DNA of 61,002 bases, from the NCBI GenBank assembly GCA_025360105.1, contig JANYCT010000056.1, forward strand, positions 1 to 61,002, read 5' to 3'. Positions 24,696 through 33,657 of the stretch are shown here, piece by piece. Below the pieces are notes generated by a model. That model saw only the letters and a program-made list of their open reading frames with translations, did no database searches and was not told the DNA's origin. Numbering within the stretch: the first letter of the stretch is position 1; each line of letters starts with the position of its first letter. This DNA is from Actinomycetes bacterium. GTDB taxonomy: Bacteria; Actinomycetota; Acidimicrobiia; Acidimicrobiales; Ilumatobacteraceae. A program made the position numbers and the translations under genes.

Positions 24696-25067
24696 ATGCC
24701 AGCAACACCACGCAGAGCCCGCAATTTTGGCGGTAGCTCGCAGCACCAGAAACTCATGATGGCCAACTTGGCAGCGTCGTTGTTCGCCGCCGAAGCCATC
24801 GTGACCACCGAAGCCAAGGCCAAGGCACTGCGCCCAATCGCCGAAAAGCTCATCACCAAAGCCAAAAAGGCCACCGACGATGACCCCATGCGCGTGCACC
24901 GCATCCGCCAGATTCAGGGTTACCTGGGCGACCGCGAGATGACACACAAATTGGTCACCGATGTTGCTCCTCGCTACAGCGAGCGCAACGGTGGTTACCT
25001 GCGCATCTACAAACTCGGACCGCGCCAGGGCGACAACGCCCAAATGGCACGTATCGAACTGGTCTAG
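24696..25067 (+). CDS. rplQ: 50S ribosomal protein L17
   Basis: L17 lies close to the tunnel exit. The 123-residue product has NFGGSSQHQKLMMANLAASLF, the EAKAKALRPIAEKLITKAKK helix and the GYLRIYKLGPRQGDNAQMARIELV end. Many actinobacterial L17 proteins carry a long C-terminal tail, sometimes with a sunset-like module; this one does not, whereas L22 in the same window does. Confidence 0.97.
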   Translation: MPATPRRARNFGGSSQHQKLMMANLAASLFAAEAIVTTEAKAKALRPIAEKLITKAKKATDDDPMRVHRIRQIQGYLGDREMTHKLVTDVAPRYSERNGGYLRIYKLGPRQGDNAQMARIELV

Positions 25068-25071
25068 ATCG

Positions 25072-25965
25072 GTGCCGGACCACGGCGCTCTCGAGAACGT
25101 GAACGAGCCCGTCGCATTGCGGCGGGCTCGTTTCGTTGTGGCGTACGATGGTTCGGGCTTCCACGGCTTTGCACCGAACCCCGATGTCGACACCGTCGTT
25201 GGTGTGCTCTCTGACGCGTTCAGTCGCATCTCGCGACATCCGGTGCAACTCGTGGGGGCCGGTCGCACCGATGCCGGTGTGCACGCCTGGGGTCAGGTCA
25301 TCAGCTGTGAGCTTGCGGAAACGGTAGATCTCGCCGACCTCGTTCGACATGTGAACCGGATGTGCGCCCCTCGCGTCGTGGTTCGCAATGCCGCCTGGGT
25401 CGCAGACGACTTCAGTGCGCGTTTCAGCGCGACGTGGCGTCACTATCGGTATATGGTGATCAACGAACCGGTTCCGAATCCGTTCCTCGCGAACACTGCA
25501 TGGCATGTGCACCAACCGTTGTCACTGCCGGCGATGCAACTCGCATGTGACCCGCTGATCGGCGAGCACGACTTCACCACGTTCTGTCGTCAACCCACGG
25601 CGATTCCCGGCCAGGCTGAGCCGTCGATGCGTCGGCGCGTCATGATTGCGAGGTGGTCTGACATCACCGACGAGATGCGCCCATTCGCCGATGGCGCGCG
25701 TGTGCTCCGATTCGAGATACGCGCCAATGCGTTCTGTCATCAGATGGTCCGCGCGATCGTTGGCACACACATCGATGTTGGTCGCGGACGATTCCATGCT
25801 GGCGAGATTCGCACGATGATGCGTGCGCAGAATCGAAAGGTCGCCGGTGACGTAGCACCAGCGCACGGGCTCGTGCTCTGGGAGGTTGGCTTCGATGGGC
25901 CGAGGTACGACGCATCGACGTCGTCCTTGCGGCGGTCTTCGATTCCCATTGTCGAGGCTCCTTAG
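25072..25965 (+). CDS. truA: tRNA pseudouridine(38-40) synthase
   Basis: It isomerises uridines 38-40 in the tRNA anticodon arm. The fold is clear from AYDGSGFHGF, the catalytic-Asp segment GAGRTDAGVHAWGQV, and RYRYMVI-like and FEIRANAFCHQMVRAIVG strands. The start is uncertain: GTG 25072 or GTG 25099, neither with a Shine-Dalgarno; the open frame from 24961 overlaps rplQ and is rejected. A very stable hairpin (25102-25132) occupies the first codons, so translation or readthrough could be limited. It has about 297 residues. Confidence 0.93.
   Translation: MPDHGALENVNEPVALRRARFVVAYDGSGFHGFAPNPDVDTVVGVLSDAFSRISRHPVQLVGAGRTDAGVHAWGQVISCELAETVDLADLVRHVNRMCAPRVVVRNAAWVADDFSARFSATWRHYRYMVINEPVPNPFLANTAWHVHQPLSLPAMQLACDPLIGEHDFTTFCRQPTAIPGQAEPSMRRRVMIARWSDITDEMRPFADGARVLRFEIRANAFCHQMVRAIVGTHIDVGRGRFHAGEIRTMMRAQNRKVAGDVAPAHGLVLWEVGFDGPRYDASTSSLRRSSIPIVEAP
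25102..25132 (+). terminator. terminator-like hairpin inside the 5' end of truA
   Basis: A 14-bp stem (one G-T pair) pairs 25102-25115 with 25119-25132 around the loop ATT. It is followed by T, C and GTTGTGG. It lies 35 bases after the rplQ stop. It has the strength of an intrinsic terminator for the infA-rplQ operon, but truA is read through it. Confidence 0.65.
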
Positions 25966-26017
25966 CACGTCGGGTCGCGCGACCGTGGGAACCTCATGAA
26001 ATTCACGGTCGATCTGA

Positions 26018-26047
26018 TTGCCGATTGACGCGTGACGCCCCTATCCT
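26018..26047 (+). promoter_or_regulatory. promoter candidate for rplM-rpsI
   Basis: TTGCCG at 26018-26023, an 18-base spacer and TATCCT at 26042-26047. It lies in the 132-base gap after truA and would leave a leader of about 45 bases. Confidence 0.5.
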
Positions 26048-26097
26048 TGTTGAGTTCCCGGTGGCAGCCGGTCGGCGCCCCGACGAAGGAAGCTCTT

Positions 26098-26547
26098 ATG
26101 ATGCGTACATACAGTCCCAAAGCAAGCGAAATCACCCACGCCTGGCACGTCATTGACGCCGAAGGCTTGGTCCTTGGTCGTATGTGCACCGAGGCAGCAC
26201 GCGTGTTGCGCGGTAAGCACAAGCCGATGTTCGCCCCCCATATGGATACCGGCGATCATGTGGTCATCATCAATGCCGCCAAGGTCGTGCTCACGTCCGA
26301 CAAGGCCTCCAAGAAGGGTGTGCACCGCTACAGCGGTTACCCGGGTGGCCTCAAGACCGAGACCTATGCAAACCTCATGGGCCGCAAGCCCGAAGAGGCC
26401 GTGCGCAACAGCATCCGTGGCATGCTCCCCAAGGGACCGCTCGGTCGTCAGATGATCACCAAGCTCAAGGTGTACGCCGGTGCCGAGCACCCGCATGCAG
26501 CTCAGATGCCTGTCGTATTGGATCTCTCAGCGGCCAAGGCCCGCTGA
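26098..26547 (+). CDS. rplM: 50S ribosomal protein L13
   Basis: L13 is an early 50S assembly protein. The 149-residue product opens [21 protein letters not shown], has [27 protein letters not shown], then [15 protein letters not shown] and the [20 protein letters not shown] block. GAAGGAAGCTC is a fair Shine-Dalgarno. Either of two adjacent ATG codons (26098 or 26101) could start it. It heads the pair rplM-rpsI. Confidence 0.98.
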
Positions 26548-26569
26548 GCATTCGGAGAGTTGAATCACC

Positions 26570-26965
26570 ATGGGCACCAAGCCACTCACGCAAACCACTG
26601 GTCGTCGTAAGGAATCCGTCGCACGCGTTCGCCTGCGTCCGGGTACCGGCATCGTCACTGTGAACGGGCGCACGTTCGAGAACTACTTCCCTACCGCGAT
26701 GGCGCGCATGATCGTCAGCGAGCCGCTGCGTCTCACCAACACCGAAGAGGTGTACGACATCGACGCGAGCATCTTCGGTGGTGGCATCAGTGGTCAGGCC
26801 GGCGCACTGCGCATGGGCATTGCCCGCTCGCTCATCGAGCTCGATCCCGAGCAGCGCCCAGCCCTGAAGAAGGCCGGCTTGTTGACCCGCGACGCCCGTC
26901 GCAAGGAGAGCAAGAAGTACGGTCTCAAGAAGGCCCGTAAGGCTCCTCAGTACACCAAGCGCTGA
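26570..26965 (+). CDS. rpsI: 30S ribosomal protein S9
   Basis: S9 places its C-terminal tail near the P-site tRNA. The 131-residue product has [18 protein letters not shown], the [19 protein letters not shown] core and the [20 protein letters not shown] tail, all standard. glmM starts 1 base after its stop, so glmM is probably cotranscribed and coupled. Confidence 0.98.
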
Positions 26966-26966
26966 T

Positions 26967-28337
26967 TTGCTGCGCTTCGGCACCGACGGTGTGCGCGGTG
27001 TAGCGCTCACGGAAGTCACAACCGAGTACGTGTTCGCCCTCGGCGCAGCCGTGGCAGCGGTGCTGCCAGGCGCGACTTGGTTGATCGCCCGCGACACCCG
27101 TGAGTCGGGCGCGGTGCTCGAGGCCGCATTGGCCGCAGGTTTGCGGTCGCGTGGCCAGACGCCGGTGCTGTGTGGTGTCGTCCCCACCCCGGCTCTCGCG
27201 CTGCTGTCGCAGCAGCGTGGTGTGCCCGCGGCGATGATCACCGCATCGCACAATCCGTACTCGGACAACGGTGTGAAGATCTTTGCCGCGGGTGGGACCA
27301 AACTCACCGATGATGTCGAGGCACGCATCGAGCTCGAACTCGAAGCCGTGCTTGCGTCGTTTGCTGCCGCTGCCGCTGCCGCTGCCGCTGATGCTGCCGC
27401 TGATGCGGTTGGGCCTGGTTCGCCAGAATCGGTCGTGATGCCCGATGCCGTTGATCAATATGTGGCACATATCGTGGCGTTGTTCCCGGCTGGCGTGCTC
27501 ACCGGTATGCGAGTCGTGCTCGACTGCGCCAACGGTGCGATGAGCGTGGTCGCGCCTGTTGTCGTGAGCGCGCTCGGTGCTCACGTCACGGCGATCAACG
27601 CGGGGCCCAACGGCACCAACATCAATGCCGACTGTGGTGCTACTCACCCCGCGTCATTATCGGCAGCGGTGCTCGATGCGCACGCTGATGTCGGTCTGGC
27701 CTTCGACGGCGACGGCGACCGTGTCATCGCGGTCGACAATCATGGACATGTGGTCGATGGTGACCGTGTTATCGCACTCGGGGCGTTGCAACTCAAGGCC
27801 GAGGGAGAACTCACCGGCAACACCGTGGTGGTCACAGTCATGAGCAACCTCGGTTTTCATCGGGCCATGAACGCCGCCGGCATCGACGTCGTGGCAACTT
27901 CGGTCGGCGACCGGTACGTACTCGAGGCGCTCGCAGCTGGTGACCACGCACTCGGTGGCGAGCAAAGTGGCCACGTGATCTATCGCCACCTGGCCACTAC
28001 CGGCGACGGGCTGCTGGCAGGTCTGAGGTTGTTGCGCCACGTTCATTCGTCGCATCGCTCGCTCACGGAGATGGCCACCGAGGTGATGACCACCTATCCG
28101 CAGGTGCTGGTGAATGTTCGCGTCAACGCGCGCCATCCCGATATTGCCTCGGAGCTTGCGACCGAAATTGCACGGGCCGAGGCGTTGCTGGACGGCGATG
28201 GTCGCGTGCTCGTTCGCGCCAGCGGCACCGAGCCGCTGGTGCGGGTGATGGTTGAGGCAGCCACCGACTCGATTGCCCGCGAGTCCGCCGATGCGCTGGC
28301 TGCTGTGGTGCACGCCCGCTTTGGTGTCGCCCACTGA
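26967..28337 (+). CDS. glmM: phosphoglucosamine mutase
   Basis: It converts glucosamine-6-P to glucosamine-1-P on the way to UDP-GlcNAc. The 456-residue protein has the FGTDGVRG opening, the phosphoserine loop TASHNPYSDNGVK, the metal loop FDGDGDR and the sugar loop GGEQSGH. It begins with TTG directly after rpsI. An Ala-rich insert (about 132-146) from hexamer repeats lies in the loop after domain 1. The next gene is GlmS-like, so two successive amino-sugar steps sit together. Confidence 0.96.
   Translation: MLRFGTDGVRGVALTEVTTEYVFALGAAVAAVLPGATWLIARDTRESGAVLEAALAAGLRSRGQTPVLCGVVPTPALALLSQQRGVPAAMITASHNPYSDNGVKIFAAGGTKLTDDVEARIELELEAVLASFAAAAAAAAADAAADAVGPGSPESVVMPDAVDQYVAHIVALFPAGVLTGMRVVLDCANGAMSVVAPVVVSALGAHVTAINAGPNGTNINADCGATHPASLSAAVLDAHADVGLAFDGDGDRVIAVDNHGHVVDGDRVIALGALQLKAEGELTGNTVVVTVMSNLGFHRAMNAAGIDVVATSVGDRYVLEALAAGDHALGGEQSGHVIYRHLATTGDGLLAGLRLLRHVHSSHRSLTEMATEVMTTYPQVLVNVRVNARHPDIASELATEIARAEALLDGDGRVLVRASGTEPLVRVMVEAATDSIARESADALAAVVHARFGVAH
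27363..27404 (+). repeat. GCTGCC hexamer tract inside glmM
   Basis: Four perfect GCTGCC copies (27363-27386) are followed by GCTGAT, GCTGCC and GCTGAT. They encode an Ala/Asp run in a surface loop. Gain or loss of units would stay in frame. Confidence 0.9.
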
Positions 28338-28425
28338 TCCGTCGGCTGCGGCGTCCGAAGCTCAGGCCGGGGTCAAGATTCGATGAGGGCGCGGTAGCTG
28401 CGGGACGTGCGGAAGTGCTCCGGGG

Positions 28426-28431
28426 TAACCT
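28426..28431 (+). promoter_or_regulatory. -10 box of a probable leaderless promoter (GlmS-like gene)
   Basis: TAACCT, then 7 bases, then ATG 28439. It supports starting the protein at MCGII, where the catalytic Cys must be residue 2. Confidence 0.5.
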
Positions 28432-28438
28432 GTGGCTC

Positions 28439-31400
28439 ATGTGCGGGATCATTGCCATACTGAGCCGGCCGAGCACCCGCTCGGTCCCACATCCTGGCGA
28501 CATTCTCGGTGCGCTCGACCACGCCATCGCTTGTTCGCCCGACATGTCAGCCATTGGCGCTGCGACCGTTGCCGTCGATGCGATGCTTCGTGGCGTTACC
28601 GGTGTGCAGGCACTGGTTGGTCGCCACGAGCTGATGGCCGGGCTCGCTGCCCGCCTCGATCAGATCGAGGCACTGCTGGTGTCGGCGGAAACCTCGATCG
28701 AGGATACAACCAGCTCGACCCCCGAGCAGATTGAGTCCACCAACGCTGTGCTCGGCAGGCTACGCGACGCAGTCTTTTCGATTCGTAACGATCGCCTGCG
28801 CGCCGCCCGCGCCGTTCACGCTCTTGCCGGCAGCGATGCGGGCGTCGCAGCCATCGCCGGTTACTTCTCTGTACAGCAGGCGTTGTCGGCCTTGGACCGT
28901 CTCGAGGTGCGCGGACGCGATTCCGCCGGGGTGCACCTGTACGTGTGGGGCCATGGTCTGACGGCTGACGACCCAGCGGTACGATCGCTGCTCGCTGGCC
29001 GAAACGACAACTCGTTGTTCACCGACAGATCCGTGCGCATCGCCGGTCAGTGCCTCAGCTTCGTCTACAAAGCGGCGGCCGAGATCGGCGAACTCGGTGA
29101 CAACACCAAGGCGTTACGCGCGGCCATTGCCGGTGACGACCTGTTGCGTCTCGCACTGTCGGCACCGGGTGCCCGACTCAGCTTGCTTGGACACACACGT
29201 TGGGCCAGCGTTGGCATCATCAGCGAGCCCAACTGTCATCCGCTGAACAGCGAAGAGGTGGAGTCTGGCTACGAGGCCGGGCCGTATTTTGTCGGTGCCC
29301 TCAACGGTGATGTCGACAACCACGCGGATCTGAAGATCGAGCACAACCTGCGCATCGCCGGACCCATCACCACCGACGCCAAGGTAATTCCGGCGCTGGT
29401 GTCGCGACTGTCGACCGAGACCAACGGCGACATCACTGAGGCCTTCCGGCGCACGGTTGCGAGTTTCGAGGGCAGCGTCGCCATAGGTGCCGCCAGCGCT
29501 GATCATCCCGATCAGGTGCTGCTCGCGCTCCGCGGCAGTGGGCAGGCGTTGTATGTCGGCTTGGCCGAGGATGCGTTCATCGTTGCGAGCGAGCCATATG
29601 GCGTGGTCGAGGAAACCAGTCGCTTCGTGCGGATGGACGGCGAGACTCCGGCAGATCCCGATCAGCCGAACAGCCGAGGGCAGGTGTTCGTACTGTCCGG
29701 CACGCGTGCCGGCGAACTCGCCGGTATTCGGCGCATGTCTTACGGCGGTACCGACTTGCCATTCTCGCCCGCAGAGGTGGTTACCGCCGAGGTGACTACA
29801 CGCGACATCGATCGGGGTTCTGCGCCACACTTCCTCCTCAAAGAAATCAGCGAGGCACCCGAGAGCTTTCGCAAGACCCTGCGCGGCAAGATCATCGAGC
29901 GCGATGGCTTGTTACACGCATTCGTGGGCGAGCGTTCGTTACCGCTTTTCATCGCCGAGCGTCTGGCGAGCGGCGAGATCCGACGCGTGCTGGTCATCGG
30001 TCAGGGCACTGCAGCCGTTGCCGGACGCAGCATGGCGGCAATGCTCGATGTGCTCACCGACGGAGGTCTTGATGTCGACCCGATCGTCGCCACCGAACTC
30101 AGCGGATTCGGGATGCGCCTCGACATGAGCGACACCTTGGTGGTTGCTGTCAGCCAGAGCGGCACCACCACCGATACCAATCGCACAGTCGATCTCGTGC
30201 GTGGCCGAGGCGCCGTGGTCATTGGCATCGTGAACCGCCGCAACAGCGATCTCACCGACAAAGCCGATGGCGTGTTGTACACATCCGATGGTCGTGACGT
30301 GGAGATGAGCGTGGCGTCCACGAAGGCGTTCTACGCGCAGGTGGCTGCTGGCACGTTGCTGGCCTGCGCCATCAGCGAGGCAGCCGGCCTCGGCTCGCCA
30401 CAGCGTCGGCATCAGCTCCTCACCTCGTTGCGCGAGATCCCCGCTGCCATGCGTACCGTCTTGCGTCTACGCGAGAACATTGCCGATGCGGCTCGCCGGT
30501 TTGCCCCGCAGCGCAGGTACTGGACGGTTGTGGGAAATGGTCCCAACGCCGTGGCAGCCGAAGAAGTGCGCATCAAACTGAGCGAGCTGTGTTACAAGAG
30601 CATCGCCTGCGACATCACCGAGGATAAGAAGCACATCGACCTGTCGTGCGAACCACTCGTGCTCGTGTGCGCCGCTGGCCTGGTGGGAGGCACGGCTGAC
30701 GACGTGGCCAAAGAAGTCGCTATTTTCCGTGCGCACAAGGCGTTGCCGATCGTGATTGCCACCGAGGGCGACGATCGGTTTTCCGCCGCTGCGCACGTCG
30801 TGGGTGTGCCTTCGGTCGACAGCGCGCTCGCGTTCATTCTTTCGGCGATGGTCGGCCATCTCTTCGGCTACGAGGCTGCGCTTACCATCGACGCGTCGGC
30901 CAGACCGCTCCGCGAGGCGCGCGAGGTGATCGAGCGTGCGATTGCCACCACCGAGGTGGGTGACGAAGTGGTGCGCATCGTGCATACGCAGCTGGCTCCG
31001 ATCGCCGAGCGATTCTTTGCGGCGCTCAGCACGGGCGTATACGACGGTCAGATGGAGGCGTCGACGGCGGTTCGGGTGGTGTCGATGCTGCGCGACGCGC
31101 TCAGCCCTACACCACTCGAGTCGTATCAGGCCGACACCGGCAAGTTCGGTTCACCGAGTGTGCTCATCGACGATCTCACGGCCGCGCTCACCCGCGCGAT
31201 CGAAGAGCTCACTCGCCCTATTGACGCGATCAAGCATCAGGCCAAAACCGTGACGGTCGGCATCAGCCGCAACGACGAGGGCGTGCTCGACCGTCCATTC
31301 GTGCAGTCGGTCCTCACGCTCGGCGTGGGTCGCGACCGTCTGTCGTATCGCTCGCTGAAAGTGCTGGCCGATCTCGGTCCGGCTGTTGCTGAGGTGGTGG

Positions 31401-31843
31401 GATTCACCCGCTACGCAATCGAAGGTGACCCTGACGCAGATGATGCAACCATCACCATTGTGGATCGTGGCGGACTTTCGCGCGATGTTGCGTCGCGGGT
31501 GGAGCGCAACAACTCGCTCGTGGGCACGAAGCGACGCGTGGCAGCCGAACGCGAGGTCCTCGTCGCACGCGGCCGCAGCGACGGTCGAACGGTCGTCTTC
31601 GTGCCAGAGGTCAAGGCCAACCACACCACCGGCATCACGCTGTTGCACGTTCGTTTCCACGATCGCCTTCCCGCGGCGGTCATGCGCGGCGTCCTGCAGG
31701 GCTATGACCGCCGCTACAACCGCCTTGTCGACTGGGTGGCCGAGACGGAGGGCAGCTTCCGTGACGACCGTCTCGGTGAGATCGCCGTTGCCGACCTGCT
31801 GATTCTACCGATCAGCGAGGTCGCTGACCGTTGGCGTCGTTGA
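28439..31843 (+). CDS. giant GlmS-like protein (glutamine amidotransferase plus SIS domains)
   Basis: Probably glutamine-fructose-6-phosphate aminotransferase, which makes glucosamine-6-P for UDP-GlcNAc. At 1134 residues it is almost twice GlmS (about 610). Cys2 of MCGII fits the class II amidotransferase nucleophile. The next landmark, RLEVRGRDSAG, comes only at about 154-164 instead of about 25, because of an insert of roughly 130 mainly helical residues. HTRWASVG and NGDVDNHADL follow. The first SIS domain has VIGQGTAAVAG and VSQSGTTTDT; a second follows with GNGPNAVAAEE. About 330 C-terminal residues after the SIS part match nothing I recognise. It follows glmM, and no other glmS is seen. 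Confidence 0.85.
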   Translation: MCGIIAILSRPSTRSVPHPGDILGALDHAIACSPDMSAIGAATVAVDAMLRGVTGVQALVGRHELMAGLAARLDQIEALLVSAETSIEDTTSSTPEQIESTNAVLGRLRDAVFSIRNDRLRAARAVHALAGSDAGVAAIAGYFSVQQALSALDRLEVRGRDSAGVHLYVWGHGLTADDPAVRSLLAGRNDNSLFTDRSVRIAGQCLSFVYKAAAEIGELGDNTKALRAAIAGDDLLRLALSAPGARLSLLGHTRWASVGIISEPNCHPLNSEEVESGYEAGPYFVGALNGDVDNHADLKIEHNLRIAGPITTDAKVIPALVSRLSTETNGDITEAFRRTVASFEGSVAIGAASADHPDQVLLALRGSGQALYVGLAEDAFIVASEPYGVVEETSRFVRMDGETPADPDQPNSRGQVFVLSGTRAGELAGIRRMSYGGTDLPFSPAEVVTAEVTTRDIDRGSAPHFLLKEISEAPESFRKTLRGKIIERDGLLHAFVGERSLPLFIAERLASGEIRRVLVIGQGTAAVAGRSMAAMLDVLTDGGLDVDPIVATELSGFGMRLDMSDTLVVAVSQSGTTTDTNRTVDLVRGRGAVVIGIVNRRNSDLTDKADGVLYTSDGRDVEMSVASTKAFYAQVAAGTLLACAISEAAGLGSPQRRHQLLTSLREIPAAMRTVLRLRENIADAARRFAPQRRYWTVVGNGPNAVAAEEVRIKLSELCYKSIACDITEDKKHIDLSCEPLVLVCAAGLVGGTADDVAKEVAIFRAHKALPIVIATEGDDRFSAAAHVVGVPSVDSALAFILSAMVGHLFGYEAALTIDASARPLREAREVIERAIATTEVGDEVVRIVHTQLAPIAERFFAALSTGVYDGQMEASTAVRVVSMLRDALSPTPLESYQADTGKFGSPSVLIDDLTAALTRAIEELTRPIDAIKHQAKTVTVGISRNDEGVLDRPFVQSVLTLGVGRDRLSYRSLKVLADLGPAVAEVVGFTRYAIEGDPDADDATITIVDRGGLSRDVASRVERNNSLVGTKRRVAAEREVLVARGRSDGRTVVFVPEVKANHTTGITLLHVRFHDRLPAAVMRGVLQGYDRRYNRLVDWVAETEGSFRDDRLGEIAVADLLILPISEVADRWRR

Positions 31844-31846
31844 GCG

Positions 31847-32212
31847 ATGATCGGCATCGGCGTCGACGCGGTTGAGATCGCCCGGTTTCGGCGCTCGCTC
31901 GAACGCACGCCCTCAATGCGCGAGCGGTTGTTTACAGCCGAAGAACTCGATTACGTCGCGCCGCAATCAGATCCCGTGCCGTCGCTGGCGGTGCGCTTCG
32001 CTGCACGCGAAGCGGTGATGAAGGCGCTAGGAGTGGGTCTCGGAGCTTTCGGTTTTCACGACGTGTGGGTCACTCGAGCAACGTCGGGCGCACCGTCGCT
32101 GCGTGTCACCGGGCAGGCCCGAGTACTTGCCGATGCAGCAGGTGTGACGCGTTGGCATCTGTCGCTGACACACAGCGACCTCATGGCCATTGCCTACGTA
32201 GTGGCCGAATAG
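31847..32212 (+). CDS. acpS: holo-[acyl-carrier-protein] synthase
   Basis: It transfers 4'-phosphopantetheine from CoA to apo-ACP. The 121-residue product has the IGIGVDAVEI opening with the Mg-binding Asp7 and the RFAAREAVMKALG motif carrying the catalytic Glu. The C-terminal WHLSLTHSDLMAIAYVV strand is typical. It lies 3 bases after the GlmS-like gene. The common order acpS-nnr-alr-tsaE is kept here. Confidence 0.95.
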   Translation: MIGIGVDAVEIARFRRSLERTPSMRERLFTAEELDYVAPQSDPVPSLAVRFAAREAVMKALGVGLGAFGFHDVWVTRATSGAPSLRVTGQARVLADAAGVTRWHLSLTHSDLMAIAYVVAE

Positions 32213-32264
32213 CGTCGTACCGATCGCAGACCCAGCGCACGCAAGCAGCGACGCGGCTGATCGC

Positions 32265-32270
32265 TACGCT
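32265..32270 (+). promoter_or_regulatory. -10 box of a probable leaderless promoter (nnr)
   Basis: TACGCT, 7 bases before ATG 32278, in the 65-base gap after acpS. It would give the nnr-to-maf gene run its own start. Confidence 0.5.
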
Positions 32271-32277
32271 GGCGACC

Positions 32278-33657
32278 ATGCTCCCCATCGTGACTCCCGA
32301 CGAGATGCGCGACATCGACGCTGCGGCGACGTCGGCGTCGATGCCGGGCAGCGCGTCGGTCGAGACTCTGATCGATCGGGCGGGTTCCGCAGTCGCGTGG
32401 GCAGCGCTGCGCATGTTGGGCGGCTCGTACGGGCGTCGCGTTGTGATTATCGCCGGTCCTGGCAACAACGGCGCAGATGGCCGCGCCGCGGCGCGCCGAC
32501 TCTCAGCGCGGGGAGTGCAGGTTGTGGTTATATCGGCGAACGACTGCCCTGCGGTGCTGCCCGAATGTGATTTGGTGATCGATGCCGCATACGGCACCGG
32601 TTTCCATGGTGTATGGCAGGCGCCAGATCCCGGTACGGCCCAGGTGCTGGCGGTCGACATTCCTTCCGGTGTGGATGGGCTCACCGGTGCGGCAGGGCCG
32701 GGTGTGATGCAGGCTGACCACACGGTCACGTTCGCGGCGCTGAAACCCGGTCTGGTGTTCGAGCCCGGCTCTGGCCTAGCGGGCAGCGTGGAGGTCGCCG
32801 ACATCGGCCTGTCGTGCGCCCACGTGCGGACGCATCTCGTACAGCAGGCTGATGTGGTCGATTGGTGGCAGCCGCGCGAGCCCGATTCGCACAAGTGGTC
32901 GGCGTCGACGCGTGTGATCGCGGGGAGCCCCGGGATGACCGGCGCGGCGTACCTTGCGGCAACGGCTGCTCAGCGCGCAGGTGCCGGAATGGTGCATCTG
33001 TCGGTGCCCGGCGCGCTCGACGGCAGCGGCGATCACGAGTACGTGCAGCGGCTGTTGCCAGGCGCCGGTTGGGCGACCGAGGTGATTTCGAGCCTTGATC
33101 GGTTTCAGTCACTGATCATCGGCCCGGGCCTCGGACGTGATGAGGAAACGGTGGCTGCGCTGCGCGAGGTCGTACGACGATCGCCGATTCCGACGGTGGT
33201 CGACGGCGATGGCCTCTTCGCGTTGGCGTGGAGCAACGACGGCGTCGCTCCGGTCCTACGCGACCGCGAGGCCCCCACGGTGCTCACGCCGCACGATGGC
33301 GAGTTCGCTCTGCTCGCCGGTGCCAAAGTTGGGGTGGATCGCATCATGGAGACCAGGCTGCTCGCGTTCGAACTCGGTGTAGTCGTGTTGTTGAAGGGTC
33401 CTGCCACGGTGATCGCCGATCCCGAGGGACAGGTACTCGTGGTGACGGCCGGCGACGATCGCCTCGCTACTGCCGGTACCGGTGATGTGTTGTCGGGCAT
33501 CATCGGTGCGCTGCTGGCGCAAGGACTTGGCGCGTGCCACGCGGCAGCGGCAGGTGCGTGGATACATGGTCGCGCCGGTCGACTTGGGTCGCGCCGCGGA
33601 CTGCTGGCTGGCGACTTGCTCCCGCTCATCCCTCAGGTTCTGGAAACACTCGAATGA
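32278..33657 (+). CDS. nnr: bifunctional NAD(P)H-hydrate epimerase / ADP-dependent dehydratase
   Basis: It repairs hydrated NADH and NADPH. The N-terminal YjeF_N epimerase part has AGPGNNGADGRAAARRL and IDAAYGTGFHG; the C-terminal ribokinase-like dehydratase has VVDGDGLFAL, TPHDGEFALL, LLKGPATVIAD and the TAGTGDVLSGIIGALLAQG signature. The 459 residues match the fused form. ATG 32278 is supported by a -10 box 7 bases upstream; the longer frame over acpS is rejected. It overlaps alr by 4 bases. Confidence 0.94.
   Translation: MLPIVTPDEMRDIDAAATSASMPGSASVETLIDRAGSAVAWAALRMLGGSYGRRVVIIAGPGNNGADGRAAARRLSARGVQVVVISANDCPAVLPECDLVIDAAYGTGFHGVWQAPDPGTAQVLAVDIPSGVDGLTGAAGPGVMQADHTVTFAALKPGLVFEPGSGLAGSVEVADIGLSCAHVRTHLVQQADVVDWWQPREPDSHKWSASTRVIAGSPGMTGAAYLAATAAQRAGAGMVHLSVPGALDGSGDHEYVQRLLPGAGWATEVISSLDRFQSLIIGPGLGRDEETVAALREVVRRSPIPTVVDGDGLFALAWSNDGVAPVLRDREAPTVLTPHDGEFALLAGAKVGVDRIMETRLLAFELGVVVLLKGPATVIADPEGQVLVVTAGDDRLATAGTGDVLSGIIGALLAQGLGACHAAAAGAWIHGRAGRLGSRRGLLAGDLLPLIPQVLETLE

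Follow-up and report, generated by a model that had tools for sequence, protein, structure and literature searches.

The window analyzed here is a stretch of 61,002 nucleotides from an actinobacterium of the Ilumatobacteraceae (contig JANYCT010000056.1 of assembly GCA_025360105.1), and the gene at its positions 28439-31843 encodes a protein that is very probably a glucosamine-6-phosphate synthase of a deep, separate lineage, one that replaces the standard GlmS and carries the GlmS C-tail inside the chain. GlmS opens the route to the peptidoglycan sugars and is a classic example of ammonia channeling. We infer the activity of the encoded protein from our finding no other GlmS in the same genome, from its catalytic residues and fold, from its position next to glmM, and from the mutual exclusion of the long and standard forms across genomes; on the same grounds the role proposed in an earlier, sequence-only reading of this DNA is supported.

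The frame is open throughout its 1134 residues and starts with MCGII, and Pfam places GATase_6 at residues 248-385 and SIS at 515-642. Relative to E. coli K-12 GlmS (609 residues), about 131 extra residues (8-138) follow immediately upon MCGIIAI, a second, smaller expansion (166-248) runs from DSAG to the HTRWA loop, and 317 residues lie beyond the SIS region. The parts of the gene are the following:

28439..31843, + strand: long-form glmS, 1134 amino acids (open reading frame, Pfam, TIGR01135, alignment, structure comparison)
28439..28459, + strand: residues 1-7, the first strand, which bears the nucleophile Cys2 at the N-terminus (Cys2 invariant in 76/76 proteins; predicted strand 3-9)
28460..28852, + strand: insert 1, residues 8-138, predicted mostly helical, with no E. 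coli counterpart (alignment, model)
28853..29803, + strand: rest of the glutaminase (GATase_6), residues 139-455 (EVRGRDSAG, HTRWAS 252-257, NGD 289-291, D313)
28934..29182, + strand: insert 2, residues 166-248, an expanded stretch ahead of the HTRWA loop, containing a conserved YKAAAEIGELGDN (alignment)
29810..30895, + strand: SIS-SIS isomerase region, residues 458-819 (SQSGTT 572-577, K713, E716, H732)
30896..31213, + strand: insert 3, residues 820-925, which separates SIS2 from the C-tail and is predicted to be helical (alignment, model)
31220..31261, + strand: internal GlmS C-tail, residues 928-941 (IDAIKHQAKTVTVG), with K936 = E. coli K603 (alignment, motif, conservation)
31271..31840, + strand: appended C-terminal domain, residues 945-1134, tentatively of PAS/GAF-like topology (domain model, structure comparison)

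Frame, Pfam and alignment thus confirm the order amidotransferase-SIS-SIS with a large insert after the catalytic cysteine that had been read from the sequence. The sizes given at that time, a 130-residue insert and a 330-residue tail, were also close, but the layout is one of three insertions and one appended domain, and the tail, then taken for an unrecognized appendage, is instead a composite of a helical insert, the GlmS C-tail with its catalytic lysine, and the C-terminal domain. A scan of contigs supplied relatives, of which we used the best 80 of at least 549 coding loci; 76 of the 80 entered the protein reading (L093, L102, L116 and L147 were omitted as truncated), and the long architecture, of about 1110-1255 amino acids, was recovered in 75 of these 76 and in 40 proteins from the genome sets, the window gene among the 40. 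Its presence in so many proteins excludes chance or an annotation artefact. At one locus (L061, genome G011) the long glmS is interrupted midway through SIS2, near residue 737, and reads as two frames, possibly through a sequencing artefact.

According to PMC8041777 and PMC7948480, the C-tail of ordinary GlmS is the protein's free end, which gives the catalytic lysine and helps to shut the ammonia channel; PMC7948480 has the channel built from Trp74 and C-tail residues, and PMC8041777 gives the E. coli C-tail lock as a salt bridge between Arg331 and Glu608. In the long form the standard ending, DxPRNLAKTVTVE, aligns with DAIKHQAKTVTVG, residues 929-941 in the window protein, and in alignment with standard GlmS proteins E. 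coli K603 falls on K936. The motif AK[ST][VI]TV occurs in exactly one copy in all 115 long proteins (the window protein included; near-duplicates are possible), 194-222 residues from the C-terminus; when the tail of the window protein was shuffled, 29 of 200000 sequences contained the motif. Over residues 929-944 the 75 other proteins of alignment A3 agree with that of the window at 99% on average, as against 52% and 60% in the flanking segments.

Structural comparison by VIA-align pairs residues 1-608 of E. coli GlmS (2j6h) with model residues 2-942, and residues 2-681 of human GFAT-1 (6r4j) with model residues 2-944; among the 27 top GlmS and GFAT rows, 18 extend to model residues 935-944. 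Telling against this placement, the other 9 end at 819, several other SIS isomerases in rows 28-50 likewise extend to 942-952, model residues 928-939 and 941-945 have a predicted local distance difference test score (pLDDT) below 50, and the structural matches run 1-3 residues out of register with the sequence alignment in the C-tail loop. Because of the low pLDDT, the shifted register and the reach of other SIS isomerases, the placement of the C-tail is mainly sequence-based. A loop that is nearly invariant yet modeled at low confidence is what would be expected of a mobile catalytic segment.

Whereas the C-tail of the standard enzyme ends the protein (AK[ST]VTVE-COOH), that of the long form is internal and its terminal Glu has become Gly. 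The residues of the two forms were compared in 29 long proteins (the window's own, one in four of the 75 and a further 9 out of the genome sets) and 38 standard proteins, picked from 40 loci tried by their AK[ST]VTVE ending, so that the conservation of the standard set at positions 602-608, Glu608 included, follows from that choice. The position of E. coli Glu608 is Gly in 29/29 long proteins, Arg331 is retained in 3/29 versus 38/38 standard proteins, and Tyr28, present in 38/38 standard proteins, is Arg in 29/29 long ones, all of which also have Gln for Leu601 and retain Trp74. These domain-interface substitutions fit a C-tail that is no longer terminal.

The catalytic roles that we assign to residues of the long form are, unless a paper is cited, those of the general GlmS literature. 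Fourteen E. coli residues are unchanged in all 29 long proteins: C1, R73, W74, N98, G99, D123, S347, Q348, S349, T352, K485, E488, H504 and K603. Across the 76 proteins C2, R254, W255, N289, G290, D313, K713, E716, H732 and K936 are invariant. The glutamine site is therefore represented by its N-terminal Cys and by the counterparts of R73, W74, N98, G99 and D123, with the neighbors T76 and H77 altered, and the isomerase site by K713, E716, H732 and K936 for K485, E488, H504 and the C-tail K603, with S303 altered.

The fold points the same way. An AlphaFold2 model of the full-length protein, built with 76 sequences, has a mean pLDDT of 87.6 and a predicted template modeling score (pTM) of 0.78; its top Foldseek matches in the PDB are GFAT-1 and GlmS (2j6h, template modeling score 0.79 by target), and VIA gives a Z of 41.8 against E. 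coli GlmS, so that the predicted structure agrees with the overall GlmS fold.

In its own genome (96.9% complete) the long gene is the only GlmS candidate that we found. The three TIGR01135 matches there are the long glmS, PurF (502.8 bits, over a cut-off of 350) and an AsnB-type protein (438.5 bits, over a cut-off of 267.1); the remaining SIS protein resembles RpiR/MurR-type regulators, with every match under cut-off, and profile searches of this 96.9% complete genome found no second glmS. Among 148 genomes of the order, taking as long a best P0001 match below 1e-100 and as standard a score over the TIGR01135 cut-off, we counted 94 with the long form, 51 with the standard form, none with both and 3 with neither; one of the three (G103, 74% complete) has part of a standard GlmS (288 bits) at the end of a contig and was scored as neither. 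In a set of 396 genomes from the phylum, 31 have the long form, 338 a standard GlmS over cut-off, and one both. The tail search that underlies the phylum count matched 33/396 genomes at E <= 0.001, and two of these (G396, 1.9e-4; G477, 6.3e-4), both with a standard GlmS, were dropped. The long form thus stands as the only candidate in the window's genome and excludes the standard GlmS, with genome G188 as the sole exception.

By their titles the long loci among the best 80 of at least 549 are actinobacterial, except for L075 (an Acidobacteria bin), L128 (Thermoanaerobacterales), L129 (Planctomycetia) and L121 (simply 'bacterium'); L075, L121 and L128 share the usual gene neighbors and L129 lacks them. 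Odd titles (Bifidobacterium breve, Acidobacteria, Thermoanaerobacterales, Planctomycetia) stand on L075, L076, L082, L128, L129 and L144, all with the usual neighbors but L129, and the oddly titled contigs are perhaps mislabeled bins.

The genes on either side of the long glmS in the window are these:

26967..28337, + strand: glmM, phosphoglucosamine mutase, upstream neighbor (TIGR01455, 474 bits over a cut-off of 447.55)
31847..32212, + strand: acpS, holo-ACP synthase, downstream neighbor (NF000832, 125.2 bits over a cut-off of 107)

The adjoining glmM, from which the sequence-only reading had argued, is thereby confirmed. Both forms lie mostly in an rplM-rpsI-glmM-glmS-acpS-nnr-alr neighborhood: at loci with enough flank, counting on the standard side 12 hand-chosen from 51 standard genomes, a same-strand glmM stands upstream of 65/67 long and 11/12 standard genes, rplM and rpsI further upstream of 60/61 and 10/12, and acpS, nnr or alr downstream of 63/64 and 11/12, respectively. 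Two families contain both forms at a shared chromosomal place. In one (f29), the flanking genes of a long-form genome (G146) are closest to those of two standard genomes (G115 and G029), at 70% with the next at 66%, although G029 and G115 are closer to each other (86%); in the other (f72), the flanks of a long-form and a standard genome (G182 and G168) agree at 57%, with the next over comparable length at <= 51%. In the order set, 40 families have two or more scored genomes and one of them is mixed, and in the class of G306 the long form occurs in 6/24 genomes, in two families each of which also has a genome lacking it.

In a tree from the core alignment, a branch with full support separates the long form from the standard proteins, which include that of E. 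coli; the tree is a quick one of 50 rows in a midpoint drawing, with E. coli and L066 on long end branches and L153 and L154 absent. Given the supported branch and the shared locus, we read the long form as an old, separate lineage that was exchanged in place with the standard gene and not as a recent elongation of the local gene. Two long genes, those of G079 (f29) and G306 (f102), have different neighborhoods, which speaks against exchange in place. Elsewhere around the locus, no Rfam element, the glmS ribozyme included, reached its gathering score in 25000-33000, no Sigma-70-like promoter was found in 28000-32300, and terminator-like sites in the latter interval number 3, versus 2.4 in shuffles. 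The glmM product contains a low-complexity alanine run (AAAAAAAAADAAAD) at 27350-27410.

If the enzyme works as these residues suggest, Cys2 would hydrolyze glutamine, the ammonia would pass W255 toward the SIS site, and fructose-6-phosphate would be opened, isomerized and aminated with the help of H732, E716, K713 and K936, the last delivered by an internal C-tail that links the helical insert 820-925 to the C-terminal domain 945-1134. One alternative is a different substrate: the protein would be a GlmS-like aminotransferase that shares the fold but uses another sugar phosphate, and glucosamine-6-phosphate would come from elsewhere. Several observations favor this alternative or weigh against the assignment as GlmS. 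TIGR01135 aligns to residues 250-816 and scores 214.5 bits, far below its cut-off of 418.05, and a very long branch leads to the standard proteins. Beside the sugar site S303 has become Ala (Ala in 2/38 standard proteins) and C300 Gln in 29/29 long proteins; in the glutamine site T76 has become Ser in 29/29 and H77 Val, Ile or Met; and Leu601 is Gln in 29/29, which with Y28R and E608G places further invariant changes near the sites. The genome also encodes a Glucosamine_iso (PF01182) protein, although this could equally be a 6-phosphogluconolactonase. As for distribution, the one genome with both forms (G188, locus L056) has 6.5 Mb and 5% contamination. Neither form was found in 28/396 phylum genomes at the thresholds used, many of them incomplete, and neither passes in G346 (99% complete) and G151 (98%); the same is true in the order set of G055 and of G035 (98% complete), the latter in a genus in which G085 and G119 have the long form. 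Set against all this are the mutual exclusion in 145/145 order genomes that have either form, the shared locus beside glmM and the retained catalytic residues, and we regard another substrate as improbable. Its score and its internal C-tail set the long form apart from the TIGR01135 equivalog, yet it is GlmS-like in build and place.

What the added modules do is a separate question, and here the C-terminal domain is the most informative part. Modeled in isolation it has a pLDDT of 94.2 and a pTM of 0.90, with the elements E39-51, E60-68, three helices, E97-100, E107-115 and E118-129. The order of elements in the DSSP string, strand-strand-helices-strand-strand-strand, is one that we take to be that of PAS/GAF domains. 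The top VIA match is the large glutamate dehydrogenase from M. smegmatis (7jsr), at Z 8.6 over 164 residues; the 50 rows listed then contain chiefly sensor domains of the GAF, PAS and Cache types at Z 7.3-5.8, and the tool itself warns that a Z < 8 is frequent without true kinship. The PAS-like reading is weak, with a best VIA Z of 8.6 and no Foldseek match at 1e-3. Pfam over 73 members of the domain (alignment A4, which excludes L077, L120 and L143) gave a best E of 0.0019 (DUF7124), the window member's sole match being below its cut-off; the domain profile gave a best E of 0.38 against PDB sequences and no homology to five proteins of the large glutamate dehydrogenase (L-GDH) type from its own and other order genomes (hhalign probability 0.2/100). 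A search of a viral structure library returned nothing at 1e-3, tail residues 835-1134 had no match at 1e-3 in plasmid and phage records, and within its own genome only the long glmS carries the domain. Given the weak VIA scores and the lack of profile homology to the L-GDH proteins, 'sensor-like' is a tentative working label for the modeled domain. The genome of the window also encodes a large (180-kDa type) glutamate dehydrogenase (L210, G000:C56), on the contig that bears purF.

The helical inserts 1 and 3 of the AlphaFold2 model matched no Pfam family. Columns 5-138, the region of insert 1, contain 126-155 residues across the 76 proteins, and this is the least conserved segment, where identity to the window protein averages 36%. 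The sequence-only reading put the insert where it could gate glutamine or the ammonia channel and suggested that the tail may sense UDP-GlcNAc or the state of the cell wall, and the inhibition of human GFAT-1 by UDP-GlcNAc, described in PMC8041777, speaks for such control; the same paper, however, places the UDP-GlcNAc site in the isomerase domain, touching the interdomain linker, and not in an added tail. Insert 1, moreover, begins where the predicted 7-residue strand (3-9) ends, at the far end from Cys2 and leading away from it. Since it is also the most variable segment, it is better seen in the model as a scaffold than as a gate, and gating with UDP-GlcNAc sensing seems to us very unlikely, slightly more so than a different substrate.

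A stronger competitor holds that the protein is a GlmS whose inserts and C-terminal domain serve only assembly or stability, through oligomer contacts and without sensing. The predicted helical nature of inserts 1 and 3, the poor conservation of insert 1 and the lack of a significant sensor-family match for the C-terminal domain in Pfam or Foldseek agree with this, but the domain is conserved nearly like the catalytic core (60% mean identity to the window protein, versus 64% and 70%), is rich in invariant polar residues, directly adjoins the C-tail, and finds its weak structural matches largely among GAF, PAS and Cache sensors. We regard a purely structural role as a real possibility, to be placed a little behind control through the C-tail. 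Such control is itself a tentative proposal, held at somewhat less than even likelihood: since extra modules are attached at both ends of the C-tail, a change in either could move it, and the modules may have been added for this reason, to control the enzyme by shifting the C-tail or keeping it in place. With similar reserve we suggest that the C-tail, the mobile element that both active sites share, may have turned into a strap within the chain, tied to a helical bundle on one side and to a sensor-like domain on the other, the latter a likely sensor of a small molecule or partner, and that a bound signal might set ammonia channeling and the closure of the sugar site.

With standard GlmS (TIGR01135, NF001484; 2j6h) the long form has in common the domain order, the N-terminal nucleophile (Ntn) glutaminase with its N-terminal Cys, the genomic place, and the residues R73/W74/N98/G99/D123 and K485/E488/H504/K603. 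It differs in being nearly twice as large as usual, exceeding the E. coli enzyme by about 520 residues, with three insertions and an internal rather than terminal C-tail, in the loss of the C-tail lock pair (E608 to G, R331 mostly gone), and in an identity of only 24-29% to standard GlmS, with a TIGR01135 score of about half the cut-off. GFAT-1 and GFAT-2 share the overall fold (VIA Z about 42), and PMC7948480 reports that human GFATs likewise have an extra internal stretch relative to GlmS, of 46 residues from Lys211 in hGFAT2; that stretch is far shorter than the inserts of the long form and in another position, and the GFAT C-tail (670-681), per PMC8041777, is terminal. A parallel is offered by L-GDH180 (7jsr), a nitrogen-metabolism enzyme of M. 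smegmatis enlarged by segments that the authors of PMC8175468 propose to be metabolic sensors. It is the top VIA match of the C-terminal domain, yet it is a different enzyme, and no sequence relation was found between the domain and the five L-GDH-type proteins compared.

The extra parts are present in many genomes, but we found no description of a long GlmS in the literature searched, which covers few subscription papers and no bioRxiv preprints; it is apparently a widespread and undescribed actinobacterial form. This matters for annotation, since with a score at about half the cut-off TIGR01135 alone would report genomes with the long form as lacking GlmS. A C-tail tethered at both ends makes it testable whether a free C-terminus is needed to couple the two sites, and the long lineage offers a natural test of how regulation may be acquired by a central enzyme. 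If the proposed control through the C-tail is true, allosteric control would be built into a bacterial GlmS that was traded in place with the standard enzyme in the course of actinobacterial evolution.

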